Source: Chlorobiota bacterium
Lineage (GTDB): Bacteria > Bacteroidota > Ignavibacteria > Kapaibacteriales > NICIL-2
Length of the DNA stretch: 64,000 nt
Assembly: GCA_026415505.1 (NCBI GenBank)
Contig: JAOAGY010000032.1
Coordinates: 124,001 to 188,000, forward strand
Direction: 5' to 3'
Positions 17,011 to 57,308 of this stretch are shown here, piece by piece. Within the stretch, counting starts at the first letter, position 1. Each line of letters starts with the position of its first letter. Both the position numbers and the translations under genes were made by a program. The notes under the pieces are model-generated. The model worked only from the letters and a program-made list of their open reading frames with translations. It searched no databases and was not told the origin of the DNA.

Positions 17011-17038
17011 CTGGCAATAGTCGGGCGCTGTATTTTTG
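17006..17038 (+). promoter_or_regulatory. Bacteroidota-type promoter (TTTG-N21-TATTTTTG) for tRNA-Thr
   Basis: TTTG at 17006-17009, a 21-base spacer and TATTTTTG at 17031-17038 match the TTTG/TAnnTTTG consensus described for the primary sigma factor of Bacteroides and relatives. It ends 13 bases before the mature tRNA 5' end. This is the best-formed promoter in the window. Confidence 0.7.
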
Positions 17039-43785: not shown

Positions 43786-45362
43786 TTTTCGAGCTGTTTG
43801 TACAGCCCCACGTTGTTGCCGTTCCAGATTACCGCAAACACGAAGCGTTCACCGTTCGATGCGCGAACGATGCCTGCCAGACCGCTCACATTACGGTGGG
43901 TCCCCGTCTTGGCTCGCAGATTGCCCTCTGCCGGTGTTCGGCGCATTCGCCTTGTGAGTGTACCATCTTCACCGGCAACCGCGAGTGTGCCAAAGAATGA
44001 CTCGCTCCATGGTTGGTGTGCGCAGTACCGCAAAAGACCGACGAGCGAACTTGCCGTTGCACGATTGCGACGCGATAAACCTGAGCCGTCGTAGAGAAGC
44101 ACACCGCCGCCATGACCGTCCAATCCGACTGAATCGAGCAACGCAACGACGCTGCGATATGCATTGACGTTGCATTGGGAGTTGCCCGAGCAGTATGCGC
44201 CGAGGATTTTCATCACATGTTCTGCAATGAAGTTGTCGCTGTTTTTATTGCAGAGCATCACCAAGTCGCGGAGTGGTCGTTCCCAACTTGCGAGCCGACG
44301 AACAGTATTTGGCGCTGCACCTTTGCCGATACCGCCTTCGACCGCTATGCCAGTGGCAGATAAACTCTGCTTGAACGCACCTGCAACGACAAGTGGCGGA
44401 TCGAGCATCGTGACCGTAAACGAGACACTCGAATTCGGACGAGGCATGCCGAAGACGCGGATCTCCTGCACTCCGTCGCTCCGCAGCGAGGAACTGATCT
44501 TCACCGGCTGGAGCGAAACACCAACGGTTCGGCGACGAGTGCGGTGACGTATAACAAGACGGTCGCCGTATCGCTGGCGGCGATGGAGCTGTCGCGTGCG
44601 CCGACGCGGCTCGGATGGCGCAGTACGCACTGGCAATGAGGTCCACGTCGTCGCGATTGCATCGCTCGATGGCAAACTGCGTACCCTCACGGAAGTACCG
44701 CGCCCGCGTGTGACGACCACAGTCAACCGATTGCCTTCGATACCGAGTGCAGATATCGGCGGCAGATTCTCCATACGCTCGTCATCGCCGCTGTACTGTT
44801 GACGATCCACGATCGGATCGAAATACGTCGCATCGGCAATGATTGACCCGCGAATGCGCCGAATACCGAGCGTTCGCAGCTTGTCCGCGAGTGCTTCCAA
44901 TTCGCTGAGCGTAAGCAAACAATCGCCGTGACCGATCACATAAAGATCGCCCTCGACCGTACCGTTGGTAATTGTGCCATTGGTGGCGACGACCGTTTGA
45001 ATCGAGTACTCCGGACCCATTGTGGCGAATGCAGCAGCAGTGTAGTAGAGTTTCGTCAGCGAAGCGGGGGTGAGCCTTTCGTCGCCGCCGCGAGCGAAAA
45101 TCATCGTGTCACGATCGAGCGACCAGACCATCAGCCCTAATCGTGTTGTGCGTAGCTGAGGCGATGATAGCAAGTTGGAAATTTCCCGCGATAGGGCTGC
45201 GTAGTTGCTCGCTCCTGGATTTGTTTGTCGTGCAGTCGAAGTGTCGGTGCTGTTGAGTCCTTCCGAGGGTAATGCTGTGACCAGCATCAATTGGGCGATC
45301 GCGATCCATCGCCAAATGGTGTGCAGTAGGCTCCGGTGTCGCTCTTGTCGGTCGCTGCTCAT
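43716..45362 (-). CDS. dacB: D-alanyl-D-alanine carboxypeptidase/endopeptidase (PBP4, S13 family)
   Basis: A 548-residue protein from ATG 45362, with a signal peptide (WRWIAIAQLMLVTALPSEG). Class C penicillin-binding motifs: Ser101-x-x-Lys104 in TPASLTKLYYT, SDN in NKNSDNFIAEHVMK and KTG in LRAKTGTHRNVSG. It trims or cuts peptidoglycan cross-links in the periplasm. The inserted domain has an Arg-rich stretch around residues 310-345 that looks odd but is in frame and flanked by good family sequence. The start touches the rseP stop. The open frame runs further upstream, but that part only mirrors rseP. Confidence 0.9.
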   Translation of the reverse strand: MSSDRQERHRSLLHTIWRWIAIAQLMLVTALPSEGLNSTDTSTARQTNPGASNYAALSREISNLLSSPQLRTTRLGLMVWSLDRDTMIFARGGDERLTPASLTKLYYTAAAFATMGPEYSIQTVVATNGTITNGTVEGDLYVIGHGDCLLTLSELEALADKLRTLGIRRIRGSIIADATYFDPIVDRQQYSGDDERMENLPPISALGIEGNRLTVVVTRGRGTSVRVRSLPSSDAIATTWTSLPVRTAPSEPRRRTRQLHRRQRYGDRLVIRHRTRRRTVGVSLQPVKISSSLRSDGVQEIRVFGMPRPNSSVSFTVTMLDPPLVVAGAFKQSLSATGIAVEGGIGKGAAPNTVRRLASWERPLRDLVMLCNKNSDNFIAEHVMKILGAYCSGNSQCNVNAYRSVVALLDSVGLDGHGGGVLLYDGSGLSRRNRATASSLVGLLRYCAHQPWSESFFGTLAVAGEDGTLTRRMRRTPAEGNLRAKTGTHRNVSGLAGIVRASNGERFVFAVIWNGNNVGLYKQLENQLGEILASFGSNDVPSTEGSSH

Positions 45363-46732
45363 CACCGCGTCAGGTCGTTGTAGAAAACGATCACCATCAG
45401 CGCGAGTATGAGTGCAACGCCGATCTGCTGATAGACGATTTTCACTTTTGCCGACAGTTCTCGTCCGAGTGCACCTTCGACGAGCACCAACACCAGATGT
45501 CCGCCGTCGAGTGCAGGAATCGGCAAAGCATTCATCACAGCGAGTGTGAGCGAGAGCATCGCCATAAAACCGATAAACGCTGCAGCGCCGATGTCTGCAC
45601 TCTGGTTCGCCATACGGGCGATCATGATCGGACCGCCTGCCGATTGTTTGAGCGATTGCTCGCCGGTGATGAGCAATCCCACTGAGCGAACGAACAGTAC
45701 CGTGTACGACCATAACTGCTCAGCAGCAATGCCGGCAGCTTCGAACACTGAATACCGCGTATGAACGATTCGACCAGTGATTGCGTTGCTAACTTGAATG
45801 CCGATTTTGCCGTCGTCGTCAGGTACGACGGTTGTGCGGTGAATCCCATCGAAGCGCTTGTACACCAGAAGCACGGGGACATTCTTGCGAGTTTGGAGTA
45901 GCTCGATGAGGTGTTCGACCGATGCGATCGGAATACCGTCGAGCGAGAGCAGGGTATCCCCCGAAGCCAGACCGGCACGACCAGCAGGACGCAACGTCTC
46001 GACGCCGAGAACAAGGGGACGCATGCCATCGGGTATGATGCCCAGATCGGGACGCGACACGAGCAAGTGTCGAAGCGCGCGTGATTCCAACGTCAAGGTG
46101 GTGTCACGACCGTTCCGGCGAACGACGACATTCACATCCCGACTGTACGCGATGCGTGCAAGATGCCGCAGAAACTCTGCAAACGAACCGATCTGGTAGC
46201 GATCCACGCGGACGATTTCATCGCCGGCACGAAAGCCGAGCTGCTCGGCAGGCGAATTACGCACAACGTATGCAATCGTGCGTGTGTCGAGTTCGCTCTT
46301 GCCTACAGCCAGTGTCGTTACCAGCAGCAGGGCGTACGCGAACACGACGTTCATGACAATGCCGCCGACGATCATGAGCACTTTTTGCCAGGTCCGTTTT
46401 GCGCGAAACTCCCATGGCTGAGGCGGACTATTCACAGCCGCGCTGTCGAAGCTCTCGTCTATCATCCCTGCGATTTTCACATAGCCACCGATGGGGAGCA
46501 ACGAGACTCGATAATCGGTGAAGCCATCAGCCGGACGACCGTGTGCGAGCGGACCCCACGAGAAACCGTGCGATTTGCTCCAACCGAAAAGACGAGGTCC
46601 CATGCCGATGCTGAAAATCTCTGTTCGTGTTCCCGTTGCTTTCGCAGCAAGGAAATGTCCCAGCTCGTGTACGAGGATCAACGGCACGATTGCCAGAACG
46701 AAATAGCCTATCGTCTGCAGCGTTTCCATCAT
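45362..46732 (-). CDS. rseP: Site-2 intramembrane metalloprotease RseP (M50)
   Basis: A 456-residue membrane protease. Zinc site His22-Glu23...His26 in LVHELGHFLAAKATG, the third ligand in LPIPALDGGHLVL, the membrane-reentrant SLLPIGGYVKIAGM, and two PDZ segments (NSPAEQLGFRAGDEIVRVD and LRPAGRAGLASGDTLLSLD). It cleaves anti-sigma factors or leftover signal peptides inside the membrane. The operon order rng-dxr-rseP-dacB is tight, with overlapping stops and starts. ATGs at 46732 and 46729 are equivalent. Confidence 0.94.
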   Translation of the reverse strand: MMETLQTIGYFVLAIVPLILVHELGHFLAAKATGTRTEIFSIGMGPRLFGWSKSHGFSWGPLAHGRPADGFTDYRVSLLPIGGYVKIAGMIDESFDSAAVNSPPQPWEFRAKRTWQKVLMIVGGIVMNVVFAYALLLVTTLAVGKSELDTRTIAYVVRNSPAEQLGFRAGDEIVRVDRYQIGSFAEFLRHLARIAYSRDVNVVVRRNGRDTTLTLESRALRHLLVSRPDLGIIPDGMRPLVLGVETLRPAGRAGLASGDTLLSLDGIPIASVEHLIELLQTRKNVPVLLVYKRFDGIHRTTVVPDDDGKIGIQVSNAITGRIVHTRYSVFEAAGIAAEQLWSYTVLFVRSVGLLITGEQSLKQSAGGPIMIARMANQSADIGAAAFIGFMAMLSLTLAVMNALPIPALDGGHLVLVLVEGALGRELSAKVKIVYQQIGVALILALMVIVFYNDLTR

Positions 46733-47892
46733 GTGCGCTGCACATGTTGTGAGACAATCTGGCTCGCCGTATGACGAGCGAGTCTATCGTATTCGATGAG
46801 CGCCTCCAAAGACGTTGCTTCACTCGGTGCGATTGCATCGAGCGTCTGCTCGATGACGTGCGGTATGGTAGTGAAAGCGATTTGTCGCTGCAAATATGCA
46901 GCCACGGCAATTTCGTCGGCTGCGTTGAGAACGGCGGTCGCCGCTCCGCCGGCTACGAGCGCCTCGTATGCCAACCGGAGACATGGGAAGCGTGCGACAT
47001 CGGGCTGCTCGAAGTCGAGCCGAGATAGCGATTGCCAGGAAATTCGCGGCAGCTCCGTCGGTTGTCGTTGGGGATACGTCAACGCATAATGGATAGGCAA
47101 TCGCATATCGGGAACACCGAGCTGGGCTTTGACCGAACCATCACGGAATTCGACCAGCGAATGAACGATGCTTTGCGGATGGACCAGCACGGCGATCTGC
47201 TCGGCAGCCAGACCGAACAACCAATGTGCTTCGATGACTTCGAACCCTTTGTTCATGAGCGTTGCCGAGTCAATGGTGATCTTGGCACCCATGGACCATG
47301 TGGGATGTTGGAGCGCCTGTTCCGGTGTGACACAAGCGAGTTCATGGGGCGACAACCCGCGAAATGGTCCACCGCTGGCAGTAAGAATGACGCGCTCGAC
47401 CGATTCGATGTTCTCGCCGACGATGCATTGCAAGATTGCACTGTGTTCGCTGTCAACGGCGAGTATCGGCGAACCACGCTCGCGGGCGCGTTCTGTGATA
47501 AGCTCGCCAGCGACGACGAGTGTTTCTTTGTTCGCCAGAGCGATGGTCGCACCACGTTCGATCGCTGCGAGCGTCGGTTCGACACCTGCGAAACCGACCA
47601 TCGCAGCCAGTACAATGTCGTTTTCTGCCCATGCAGCAGCAGCGAGAATCCCTTCGCTGCCGCAGAGGACCGGTCCCTGAAACGATGACGATCGGCGAAA
47701 CTGGCAATAGGCTTCCTCCGAGCAAATCGCGACTCCATACGGACGGAATCGTTCTACTTGTTGTGCCAAAAGTTCGACGTTGGTATTGGTCGTCAAAAAT
47801 CCGATGCGTATTTCTGGATGGTACGCAGCGATGACGTCGAGCGCTTGGCGTCCGATCGAGCCGGTCGCACCGAGTATCGTCAAAGTTTTCAT
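46729..47892 (-). CDS. dxr: 1-deoxy-D-xylulose 5-phosphate reductoisomerase
   Basis: The 387-residue enzyme makes 2-C-methyl-D-erythritol 4-phosphate in the MEP isoprenoid pathway. NADPH loop LGATGSIGRQALDVI; ALANKETLVVAGELI; metal and substrate site AVDSEHSAILQCI, LTASGGPFRG and DSATLMNKGFEVIEAHWLFG; VHPQSIVHSLVEFRDGS. Complete length. It overlaps rng by four bases upstream and rseP downstream; the dxr-rseP link is widespread in bacteria. Confidence 0.96.
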   Translation of the reverse strand: MKTLTILGATGSIGRQALDVIAAYHPEIRIGFLTTNTNVELLAQQVERFRPYGVAICSEEAYCQFRRSSSFQGPVLCGSEGILAAAAWAENDIVLAAMVGFAGVEPTLAAIERGATIALANKETLVVAGELITERARERGSPILAVDSEHSAILQCIVGENIESVERVILTASGGPFRGLSPHELACVTPEQALQHPTWSMGAKITIDSATLMNKGFEVIEAHWLFGLAAEQIAVLVHPQSIVHSLVEFRDGSVKAQLGVPDMRLPIHYALTYPQRQPTELPRISWQSLSRLDFEQPDVARFPCLRLAYEALVAGGAATAVLNAADEIAVAAYLQRQIAFTTIPHVIEQTLDAIAPSEATSLEALIEYDRLARHTASQIVSQHVQRT

Positions 47893-49508
47893 GCCAACTG
47901 TACCGACGCTGTGATGTCTTTACCTGTGCGCTGCGACACGATGCGGAACGAATGTTGGGGAAGCGACGGGTCCGGTTCCAAACGTAAGCGCACAAAATGC
48001 CGCAGCATCAATCGAACCAACCGACTGAGCGAACCGTCGCTGAGGTATTCGGCGATTGTCGGATGAACGCGTACAATGAGCCGTCGTTCGTGCGCTGTTT
48101 TCTTGTACCGTGCCAGCCAACGGTCGAGCTTCCCGGCGATACTCGATCGGTTATCGATCCGGCCGAGACCGCCGCAGGTGGGACACTGTTCGGTGAGCCA
48201 TTCGAAGAGATTTTGTCGAACACGCTGACGGGTCAATTGCAGCAGACCCAGCTCGGTGATGGGGTAGATCACAGTTTTCGCGCGATCGCGACGCAACAAC
48301 TGTCGCATGTGGTTGAGCAGCTGTTGCCGGTGCTTGGAGTGCTTCATATCGATGAAGTCAACGATGATAATGCCGCCGACGTCGCGCAATCGCAGTTGCC
48401 GTGCGATCGCATCGGCAGCTTCGAGATTGGTTCGAAGCGCGTTCATCTCTTGTTCGGCATCGGTCGTCGCACGGCCTGTGTTGACGTCAATGACGAGCAT
48501 AGCTTCGGTATGGTCGAACACGATCGAGCCACCACTGGGCAGAGGAAGCGTGCGTGCAGTAATCGTGCGGAGTTGTTCGGTGATGCCGACATGCTCGAAA
48601 AGCGGTTCGCTACCGCTGTAGAGCTGAAGTCTCGGTAGTAAGTCCGGGTCGGTCTCAGCCAAGTACGTCTCGATCGTCCGATAGAGGCGGCTACTGTCAA
48701 CGACGATTCGCTCGACGGTAGGTGTCAAAAGATCGCGAACGATGCTGCTGGCGATATTTTCTTCGCGGTAGAGAAGACCCGGTTTTTGGCGTGTTGCCAA
48801 CGTTTGTTCGATCCGCCGCCATTGGGAAAGGAGTGCATCCCAATCGCGTTTGAGGTCGTGCTCGGTTTGATTCTCCGCAGCAGTGCGAATGATACAACCC
48901 GCACCCTGAGGAAGAACGCTCCGCGCCAGTGCGCGAAGTCGTCTTCGCTCGGCTTGCGAGGTGATTTTGCGAGAAATCCCGATGACATTCTCGAAGGGTA
49001 GTAGTACAACGTATCTGCCGGGCAATGTTATGCGTGTCGTCACACGGACGCCTTTTGTCGCGTATGCTTCACGAATGACCTGAACCAATACCAATTGACG
49101 CGGTTGGAGATTGATGACGACATTTCCGGATCGCTTCGTTTGGAATATCGGTTTCGACCGTGAACGTTGCCGCGGCTGTTCGAGTCGCAGAGCTTCGCGT
49201 GCTGCCGGTGATAACTGCTCTGCATCTGCTGTGACGAGTGTACCGTCACTGTCGTCTTCGGTCTCGTAGTGTTCTTCGAGCGACGTGTCCACATCGGAAA
49301 AGTGGAGGAAGGCGTCCTGCTCCAAACCGATGTCAATGAAGGCGGCATTCATCCCTTGCACGATTTTCTCGACACGCCCCAGAAAAATACTTCCCACCAA
49401 ACGCTCACGATCGGGAACGTCGGCAAAGTATTCGACCACTTCGCCGTGCTCGGTGATCGCGATCTGTGTTTCGTCGAGCGAATGGCTCATGTAGATGACC
49501 TGTTTCAT
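47889..49508 (-). CDS. rng: Ribonuclease G
   Basis: A 539-residue RNase E/G-family endonuclease from ATG 49508. N-terminal S1 domain with GSIFLGRVEKIVQGMNAAFIDIGLEQDAFLHFSDV, interrupted by an acidic insert and an Arg/Ser/Gln-rich insert (residues 75-125). The DNase I-like catalytic core has FDHTEAMLVIDVNTGRATTDAEQEMNALRTNLEAADAIARQLRLRDVGGIIIVDFIDM, and the zinc link is EQCPTCGGLGRI. It lacks the long C-terminal scaffold of RNase E. It matures 16S rRNA and turns over mRNA. The SRP RNA gene ends 32 bases upstream on the same strand. Confidence 0.94.
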   Translation of the reverse strand: MKQVIYMSHSLDETQIAITEHGEVVEYFADVPDRERLVGSIFLGRVEKIVQGMNAAFIDIGLEQDAFLHFSDVDTSLEEHYETEDDSDGTLVTADAEQLSPAAREALRLEQPRQRSRSKPIFQTKRSGNVVINLQPRQLVLVQVIREAYATKGVRVTTRITLPGRYVVLLPFENVIGISRKITSQAERRRLRALARSVLPQGAGCIIRTAAENQTEHDLKRDWDALLSQWRRIEQTLATRQKPGLLYREENIASSIVRDLLTPTVERIVVDSSRLYRTIETYLAETDPDLLPRLQLYSGSEPLFEHVGITEQLRTITARTLPLPSGGSIVFDHTEAMLVIDVNTGRATTDAEQEMNALRTNLEAADAIARQLRLRDVGGIIIVDFIDMKHSKHRQQLLNHMRQLLRRDRAKTVIYPITELGLLQLTRQRVRQNLFEWLTEQCPTCGGLGRIDNRSSIAGKLDRWLARYKKTAHERRLIVRVHPTIAEYLSDGSLSRLVRLMLRHFVRLRLEPDPSLPQHSFRIVSQRTGKDITASVQLA

Positions 49509-49544
49509 ACGGTCTCTCGAACTGGCGGAATGGACGCGCAAAAT

Positions 49545-49645
49545 AAAAACGGCCAAGTTTGCCACGCGCACTCCACACTATCTGACCGTTGCTTTCTTCC
49601 GAACCTGGCGGAGTTGGGATAGGCGAAGCCGCATGGAACTTGACC
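49545..49645 (-). ncRNA. ffs: Signal recognition particle RNA (4.5S-type, small bacterial SRP)
   Basis: On the minus strand, 49608-49588 reads CCAGGTTCGGAAGAAAGCAAC, the universal SRP domain IV: a TTC-GGAA-GAA hairpin with the asymmetric CCAGG/AGCAAC internal loop that binds Ffh. Pairings extend outward: CCG/CGG, CTATC/GATAG, CCATGCG/CGCGTGG and GGTCAAGTT/AACTTGGCC (49645-49637 with 49559-49551), giving one long rod of about 95 nt. A run GTTTTTATTT follows at 49550-49541, as a terminator. A TATTTTCG promoter element lies 5 bases before the 5' end. It has no Alu domain, so it is the small form. Confidence 0.85.
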
Positions 49646-49650
49646 GCGTG

Positions 49651-49658
49651 CGAAAATA
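49651..49658 (-). promoter_or_regulatory. Promoter -7 element (TATTTTCG) for the SRP RNA
   Basis: Minus-strand TATTTTCG ends five bases before the predicted 5' end of the RNA. The same 10-mer context GTATTTTCGC occurs on the plus strand before lipA, 66 bases away, so the two promoters are arranged divergently. Confidence 0.6.
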
Positions 49659-49716: not shown

Positions 49717-49724
49717 TATTTTCG
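49717..49724 (+). promoter_or_regulatory. Promoter -7 element (TATTTTCG) for lipA
   Basis: TATTTTCG 27 bases before the lipA ATG, identical to the element of the divergent SRP RNA and of recN. Confidence 0.5.
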
Positions 49725-49751: not shown

Positions 49752-50630
49752 ATGATCGAGCTTCCCGTCCTCGAGCAATCCACTGACGATGTCGTTCGTC
49801 GTCCGCCATGGCTCAAAGTTCGCGCACCAGGCGGGGACACCTACGCACGGCTCAAAACGATGATGCGCTCGAAAGCGCTACATACCGTCTGCGAAGAAGC
49901 GCGCTGTCCTAACATCGCTGAATGTTGGGGCGCAGGAACTGCCACATTCATGATCGGCGGCGATACGTGCACTCGCTCGTGCGGCTTCTGTTCGGTCAAA
50001 ACAGGACGGCCGCTTCCAATCGACTGGGACGAACCTCGACGGGTTGCTGAAGCTGTCCATCAGATGCAGTTGATTCATTGCGTAATCACATCGGTCAACC
50101 GCGATGAACAACCCGACGGCGGTGCTCGTTTATGGGCGGAAACCATTCGCGCGGTGCGGTCGCTCAATCCGAACACAACAATCGAGGTGTTGATTCCAGA
50201 TTTCAAGGGCAATTTCGACGCTCTCCAGATCGTCCTCGATGCCGAACCCGATATCCTCGGACACAACACCGAAACAGTTCCGCGTTTATACCGTCGCGTG
50301 CGTCCACAAGGGAAGTACCACTGGACGCTCGATGTCCTTCGCTACGCCAAAGAGCAGGGCTTCCGCACCAAAAGCGGAATGATGCTCGGTTTGGGCGAAA
50401 CCAAAGAGGAAGTACTCGACGTGATGCGCGATCTACGAGCTGTCGGTTGTGATGTCTTGACGCTCGGGCAGTACTTGCAGCCGACGAAGAATCATCTGCC
50501 AGTCGAGCGATTCGTTCATCCCGACGAATTCGCCGAGTATCGCGACAGTGGGCTTGCGATGGGATTCCTCCACGTCGAATCCGGTCCACTGGTGAGAAGC
50601 TCCTACCATGCCGAACGGCACGTGCAGTGA
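49752..50630 (+). CDS. lipA: Lipoyl synthase
   Basis: A 292-residue radical SAM enzyme that inserts two sulfurs into octanoyl groups on lipoyl domains. The auxiliary cluster cysteines are in [13 protein letters not shown] (Cx4Cx5C) and the SAM-cluster cysteines in [10 protein letters not shown] (Cx3Cx2C). [32 protein letters not shown] and the final RSSYHAE(R) are family-typical; the closing Ser of RSSY is the residue that ligates the auxiliary cluster. ATG 49752 follows the promoter element. lipB is not nearby. Confidence 0.96.
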
Positions 50631-51930: not shown

Positions 51931-51962
51931 TTGGATTCGTTCTGCACGACGCTGTATTTTCG
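51931..51962 (+). promoter_or_regulatory. Promoter (TTG-N21-TATTTTCG) for recN-phnC-phnE-guaD
   Basis: TTG at 51931-51933, a 21-base spacer and TATTTTCG at 51955-51962, ending 28 bases before the recN ATG. Confidence 0.55.
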
Positions 51963-56846: not shown

Positions 56847-56912
56847 ATCGCCACGATGTGCACACAATCGCAGACCCTTGAACTGTGGCGAACAAACCAG
56901 AATTTGCCATTG

Positions 56913-57308
56913 TGGAGGTGCCGGGGGTCGAACCCGGGTCCGAAGCACCAGTCGCGTAGCATCTCCATGCTCAGTCGCTCTTTCGGGTTTCGCTCGGTGC
57001 GGTTGCGGAGCGACACGCGCCGCCCGAGCTATCGTTCGAGTTTACCGTACCTGTAGCGGAACGATACGCTACTGGCACGAGCCATCAGGCTTTCGATGCT
57101 GCTTTCACACGCGTGATGGCGCACGTGCGAGCAGCAGGGAGTGGAGCTACGCTCGACACTACCCAGCAATGGTGCCGCTTTTAGGCAGCCATTGCGTAGC
57201 TGAACGAGTTGGCATTTTGCCATCGCTGGTTGTATTTACGAGCAGCACCAGCAAGCTCGGCATGCAGCTACGACGGCTGTCGTACTCCGTCGAATCCATG
57301 TCACCCCC
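56913..57308 (-). ncRNA. ssrA: Transfer-messenger RNA (tmRNA)
   Basis: Minus strand. The 5' end GGGGGTGACATGGATTCGAC and the 3' end GGGTTCGACCCCCGGCACCTCCA form the tRNA-like domain (acceptor GGGGGTG/CACCTCC with one G-T pair). CCA is not encoded, as for the two tRNAs. The tag frame at 57213-57181 reads GCC AAC TCG TTC AGC TAC GCA ATG GCT GCC TAA, giving ANSFSYAMAA. It rescues stalled ribosomes and marks the peptide for ClpXP-type proteases. The gene lies 65 bases after the shortened clpB and is about 396 nt long, so it is the one-piece form. Confidence 0.95.

Follow-up and report, generated by a model that had tools for sequence, protein, structure and literature searches.

The window, i.e. 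the whole stretch of 64,000 nucleotides that was analyzed, contains on its minus strand a small SRP RNA gene, the only one found in the genome; it probably heads a unit SRP RNA-rng-dxr-rseP operating via read-through or processing (Table 1). As a rule, the SRP RNA gene is regarded as a housekeeping gene that stands on its own. Within the order of this bacterium, SRP RNA and rng are often kept adjacent on the same strand, sometimes only a few bases apart, and for this reason they probably share one transcript. We observed the RNA and its one copy, the same-strand linkage to rng, a promoter-like box upstream of the RNA in the order, many intervening gaps that are too short for a promoter or carry no signal for one, and overlapping ORFs in the window. 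The linkage is a modest finding and apparently an unreported one; no report of it was found in the open-access literature searched, among the matches listed.

Table 1: Features of the SRP RNA-rng locus in the window.
Feature	Position	Strand	Length	Basis and remarks
rseP, RIP metalloprotease	45362..46732	-		TIGR00054, 263 bits; start overlaps dxr stop (ATGA)
dxr, 1-deoxy-D-xylulose-5-phosphate reductoisomerase	46729..47892	-		TIGR00243, 467 bits; start overlaps rng stop (ATGA)
rng, Rne/Rng-family ribonuclease	47889..49508	-	539 aa	TIGR00757, 465 bits (cut-off 326)
Gap from SRP RNA model end to rng start codon	49509..49547	-	39 nt	Genus alignment (n = 6), gap motif scan
U-tract TTTTTATTTT after the SRP terminal stem, intrinsic-terminator-like	49540..49549	-		Sequence
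Small bacterial SRP RNA gene with GGAA-capped Ffh site	49548..49645	-	98 nt	RF00169, fold, covariation
Putative -7 promoter element TATTTTCG	49651..49658	-		Pattern match; ends 5 nt before SRP RNA
lipA, lipoyl synthase, divergent neighbour	49752..50630	+		TIGR00510, 388 bits; outside conserved block

Identity of the SRP RNA Gene

SRP RNA and Ffh form the signal recognition particle. An earlier note on this DNA had proposed a complete small SRP RNA on the minus strand, with a GGAA-capped Ffh-binding hairpin and a T-rich end, and had named the Rfam model for small bacterial SRP RNAs as the appropriate check. The proposal was borne out in all these parts. In a cmscan of the window the model RF00169 (Bacteria_small_SRP, gathering score 40 bits) matched the minus strand at 49645-49548 over its full length (model positions 1-97 of 97) with 64.8 bits and an E-value of 4.8e-12. 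The same note had raised the question of a better SRP RNA elsewhere. RF00169 matched only once in the whole genome (2,293,146 bases, 99.27% complete), and a second SRP RNA was rejected on this basis. The Ffh-site core GGAAGNAAGCANC was found in the RNA of the window (locus L001), where the GGAA-capped, Ffh-binding-type hairpin reads CAGGTTCGGAAGAAAGCAAC. Folding of the minus strand from 49648 to 49540 gave -46.3 kcal/mol (z -4.55), and none of 200 shuffled sequences was equally stable.

The comparison with related sequences led to the same assignment. The core pattern was present in 142 of 154 SRP RNA loci, some genomes being counted twice. An alignment of 54 SRP RNAs, hand-chosen from the 106 of the order, showed at least one kept double change in 26 of the 32 consensus pairs. 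The genome also encodes one Ffh M-domain (PF02978, 123.9 bits). The feature is the ordinary small SRP RNA gene of this genome with nothing unusual in the RNA itself, and the interest of the locus lies in its genomic setting.

Some observations were made in passing. Unusual tips occurred in the SRP RNAs of loci L126, L130, L121, L016 and L143, that of L121 (genome G283) reading CCTAGCGG in the alignment, and no GGAA was present within the SRP RNA matches of genomes G451, G454, G275 and G310. Genome G410 gave a second SRP RNA match at a contig end (C102:2-100). A search of the window's genome for 16S rRNA gave no match. In the window, Rfam model RF00023 detected a tmRNA at 56910-57308 (minus strand, 151 bits) which was not reported by ARAGORN; the match terminates in CACAA and not in an encoded CCA.

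Genes Downstream of the SRP RNA

The SRP RNA lies between rng and lipA in a gap of 243 bases (rng ATG at 49508 to lipA ATG at 49752), as the earlier note had given it. We agree that protein-only annotation would hide the gene; an annotation that includes Rfam is expected to detect it. The note had further placed RNase G just downstream on the same strand. The position is correct, and the protein passes the cut-off of the Rne/Rng family. With the ribonuclease G equivalog model NF008689 it scored 349.7 bits and remained below the cut-off of 594; 'RNase G' is thus a loose name for the rng product. Since the stop codon of rng overlaps the start of dxr and the stop codon of dxr overlaps the start of rseP, rng-dxr-rseP looks like one operon. 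The position of rseP was examined in the window.

Conservation of the SRP RNA-rng Linkage

We searched 123 genomes of the order, obtained an SRP RNA match in 106 of them and used one locus from each. Rng was sought by tblastn on the oriented DNA beside the SRP RNA with a reach of 1.5-3 kb (approximately 780-860 nt of downstream DNA for G480, G482 and G407). In 71 of the 106 loci it was found downstream of the SRP RNA in the same orientation, and these 71 loci represent 8 of 10 family labels. All six loci of the family of the window (f1) and all six members of its own genus were linked. The other families contributed 6/12 (f2), 22/22 (f3), 24/45 (f4), 6/8 (f5), 0/1 (f6), 3/3 (f7), 0/5 (f56), 1/1 (f57) and 3/3 (f58) linked loci. 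With 46 nt of downstream sequence G431 was not assessable, and the linkage was absent from 34 of the 105 assessable loci. In the class outside the order, 10 of 27 sampled loci were linked (5/5 in f8, 2/2 in f10, 3/3 in f11 and 0/17 in others), and in the phylum outside the class none of 36 (16 + 20). These samples, taken from 64 matching genomes of the class and approximately 280 of the phylum, consist of better-scoring matches and are not random. All 81 Rng matches beside an SRP RNA were located on its strand. Among 61 named Rng loci of other groups (31-40% identity), 18 were scanned with Rfam and contained no SRP RNA.

The earlier note had remarked that read-through would join the SRP RNA to the rng message, and this remark gains weight from an arrangement kept in 71 of 106 loci of the order. 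The linkage is not obligatory, because it is absent from about a third of the assessable loci, including all five of f56, and because rng was present elsewhere in all 20 genomes tested out of the 35 without rng after the SRP RNA. A known RNA family near rng in these unlinked genomes was considered and rejected, as 20 loci gave no Rfam match at gathering score. The idea that long-gap members share a small gene in the interval from SRP RNA to rng was likewise rejected, since no such gene recurs in their ORF lists, compared by eye. Downstream of the SRP RNA in unlinked members, 6 of 7 scanned ORFs had Pfam matches (e.g., phosphorylase-superfamily, dihydrodipicolinate-synthase-family and SNF2-type helicase proteins), and the partner can therefore change. 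In the unlinked order members L109, L074, L111 and L089 the SRP RNA was located upstream of other genes of the same strand, in L109 at 22 nt from an ORF of the phosphorylase superfamily.

Seventeen of the 123 order genomes had no SRP RNA match. Seven of them lacked an rng match as well (G001, G399, G423, G437, G446, G341 and G476); among these, G399 comes from the unlinked family f56, and completeness is only 76-84% in G437, G446 and G476. In six others (G002, G412, G428, G463, G426 and G471) a contig edge truncates rng on its 5' side. The remaining four (G434, G445, G420 and G481) have rng with no SRP RNA beside it, and the genera of G434 and G481 include unlinked members. Absence of both genes and contig breaks between them are expected in draft genomes when SRP RNA and rng are neighbours. 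A true loss of SRP RNA in G001 and G002, which belong to the same family, was considered and is doubted: a contig end truncates rng of G002, and both genes are missing from G001, which makes an assembly gap the likelier cause. The comparison suggests that gaps in the assembly account for many of the SRP RNAs not found in draft genomes of the order.

Neighbourhood of the Linked Genes

The upstream side of the linked pair varies. Among the 71 linked order loci lipA was found in two. The nearest upstream ORFs, available for 69 of the 71, fell into 30 similarity clusters, none of which extended across two families, and even the six loci of the own genus had upstream ORFs of four clusters. One cluster was common to all 22 loci of f3 and another to nine loci of f4, and the loci of one family are consequently not independent. 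On the downstream side, dxr followed rng in 31 of the 41 linked order loci whose sequence extends 1,850 nt or more from the rng start (32/46 at a limit of 1,750 nt and 22/28 at 1,950 nt), in families f1, f2, f3, f4 and f58. Since the upstream ORFs differ between families and dxr is kept, the conserved block starts at the SRP RNA and extends downstream. The linkage thus outlasts its surroundings between families, and does so less within them.

Six loci of f4 (L125, L126, L130, L131, L118 and L054) were submitted to ARAGORN because their upstream DNA resembled a tRNA end. All six carry a tRNA-Arg(UCU) gene that precedes the SRP RNA by 13-20 nt in the same orientation; this suggests a longer joint transcript tRNA-SRP RNA-rng in these loci. 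In four of the six a -7-like box occurs right before rng. Of two further loci analyzed in this way, L109 (f2) has the tRNA-Arg(UCU) gene on the opposite strand, and L001 lacks it.

Promoter-Like Boxes

The -7 type promoter motif of Bacteroidota is TAnnTTTG. Both this motif and the distant matches of the Rng protein are consistent with the wider Bacteroidota; a group resembling Kapabacteria or Ignavibacteria is a guess. We searched for this motif with C allowed at the penultimate position (TAnnTTYG). A match was present in the 50 nt that precede the SRP RNA in 83 of the 106 order loci: 54 of 71 linked loci, where shuffles predict 3.2, and 29 of 35 unlinked ones, where they predict 2.1. In 46 of these 83 loci the box ends 5-6 nt before the RNA, a position that would place the transcription start at approximately the 5' end of the SRP RNA. 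Within the own genus TATTTT is invariant (6/6), in contrast to the DNA farther upstream, which aligns poorly. Three of the 71 linked and four of the 35 unlinked order loci have a box inside the SRP RNA. In the class outside the order a -7-like box preceded the RNA in none of 10 linked and in 3 of 17 unlinked loci; given its absence from the linked loci, the promoter argument is confined to the order. A pattern scan of the window locus revealed no sigma-70-type promoter on the minus strand.

Over the whole window, no enrichment of the pattern TAnnTTYG was seen (44 matches, 40.6 expected). Boxes reading TATTTTCG or TATTTTTG occur shortly before lipA (49717-49724), recN (51955-51962) and a tRNA-Thr gene (17031-17038), all on the plus strand. 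These would fit a genus-wide -7 element, with the reservation that the wider pattern shows no enrichment in the window. Two more stretches of this kind lie within the locus itself. A TATTTTGC-like stretch overlaps the U-tract in four of the six genus members, the window included, and TACGTTTG is located inside rng of the window 86 nt before dxr. Because of these two stretches, separate promoters may exist for rng or for dxr-rseP.

Terminator-Like Tract and Gap before rng

A pattern scan detected a terminator-like site that ends in the TTTTTATTTT tract and uses a small local stem of 5 pairs (49565-49549). The long terminal stem of the SRP RNA exceeds the loop limit of the scan and is therefore missed. 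In the same scan 8 terminator-like sites were found, compared with 2.4 from shuffles. A run of at least five T follows the SRP RNA in 66 of 71 linked and in 28 of 35 unlinked order loci. As these runs are kept equally in both groups, termination looks no weaker where rng follows. The predicted fold leaves the U-tract mostly unpaired.

The distance between the SRP RNA and the rng ATG was determined for 67 of the 71 linked order loci, an in-frame ATG near the aligned start being required. The median is 39 nt; 40 of the 67 gaps measure at most 45 nt and 15 measure at most 15 nt, which leaves no room for a promoter. In 9 of the 22 loci of f3 the gap is 6-8 nt long, and the AUG touches or adjoins the end of the U-run. 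If this AUG is the start codon in use, the message has to start inside the SRP RNA or ahead of it; in these short-gap species of f3 the rng message can hardly start anywhere else. Apart from the T tract, the gap shows no conserved promoter-like block in the alignment of the own genus (n = 6). In the genus of the window, an rng message that starts inside the SRP RNA or ahead of it is likewise likely, though not forced, in view of the TATTTTGC-like stretch over the U-tract and of TACGTTTG inside rng.

It is possible, above all where the gap is long, that SRP RNA and rng are independent neighbours. The RNA would then end at its terminator, rng would be transcribed from a promoter in the gap or overlapping the U-tract, and slow rearrangement would keep the two genes together. 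The retention of the T runs in linked loci fits such an arrangement, as does the absence of the linkage from part of the order. A -7-like box was indeed found in the gap (extended by 10 nt of the RNA) in 15 of the 67 linked order loci, with 6.6 expected; ten of the 15 belong to f4, among them G451-G454 with TATATTTG right before the AUG of rng. The upstream neighbour conserved throughout f3 (22/22) is also what slow rearrangement would give. However, the gaps of at most 15 nt are too short for a promoter, and the gap in the window genus lacks a conserved promoter-like block besides the T tract. Moreover, the upstream genes vary between families and within the own genus, while SRP RNA and rng stay together and dxr follows in most loci. 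We give independence of the two genes a limited chance of being correct.

Expression of the Proposed SRP RNA-rng Unit

The reading that we prefer, a unit headed by the SRP RNA, would work as follows. One promoter just upstream of the SRP RNA would start transcription at approximately its 5' end. The SRP hairpin and the U-tract would stop most transcripts and thereby yield the abundant RNA. A minority of the polymerases would read through, or a nuclease would cut the joint transcript, and the remaining transcript would serve as mRNA for rng, dxr and, in the window, rseP. The co-transcription, the leaky termination and the nuclease that would separate the products are inferred. The locus with an SRP RNA at the head of a ribonuclease operon would be a natural case of strong stable-RNA transcription feeding a low-level message by leaky termination. 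The lineage would also offer a case for self-control of an RNase E/G-type enzyme via a housekeeping RNA.

A further step can be imagined in which the whole SRP RNA acts as the 5' leader of the rng-dxr message of the order (including rseP in the window). The rng product or leader-bound Ffh might then set the amount of message, so that one leaky terminator would tie together SRP supply, RNA turnover and an operon for isoprenoid synthesis and a membrane protease. In species whose AUG comes right after the U-run, one single element would act as both SRP terminator and rng start site. We regard this proposal as speculative and unlikely.

A stronger form of the preferred explanation is a feedback loop. 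The rng product would cut the joint transcript in the U/A-rich gap, trim the 3' end of the SRP RNA and lower its own mRNA, and in this way couple SRP RNA maturation to the ribonuclease level. The partner gene does encode an enzyme of the RNase E/G family, the U-tract is mostly unpaired in the fold prediction, and E. coli RNase E provides a precedent for control through the own leader (excerpt of PMC10989929). Against this, the gap contains no conserved sequence besides the T tract. In addition, dxr is part of the conserved block, and the linkage may for this reason serve expression in general. Such a loop appears quite improbable to us. Practically no weight remains for the idea that the feature is a terminator or a chance hairpin instead of an SRP RNA: only the terminator-like T tract speaks for it, and it is excluded by the full-length RF00169 match and the covariation, together with the one copy and the GGAA core.

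Comparison with Known Systems

Returning to the proposed SRP RNA-headed unit, the RNA corresponds to the RF00169 type, i.e. 4.5S RNA encoded by ffs, in its full-length match, its long GGAA-capped hairpin and its one copy, and differs from it in the setting only.

Two known arrangements resemble this setting. The first is the autoregulation of E. coli RNase E, which according to an excerpt of PMC10989929 is controlled via its own 5' leader, the rne 5' UTR. By analogy, this could serve as the model if the rng enzyme acts on its own leader. In contrast to the rne leader, the leader would here be a complete housekeeping RNA.

The second one is the linkage of SRP RNA to dnaX. According to excerpts of PMC2704228 and PMC2573895, the gene immediately downstream of the 4.5S RNA in Candidatus Pelagibacter ubique and Sinorhizobium meliloti is dnaX, in the same orientation. 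In both systems an SRP RNA immediately precedes a protein gene of the same strand, and with these precedents the placement of an SRP RNA in front of a gene of its own strand is already known. Measured against the same excerpts, the locus described here differs in its partner, which is a gene of the RNase E/G family with dxr behind it (and rseP as well in the window), in the bacterial group, and in the AUG that abuts the U-run in part of f3. Thus, the rng-dxr partner and a terminator that runs into the start codon are a variant of a known arrangement.
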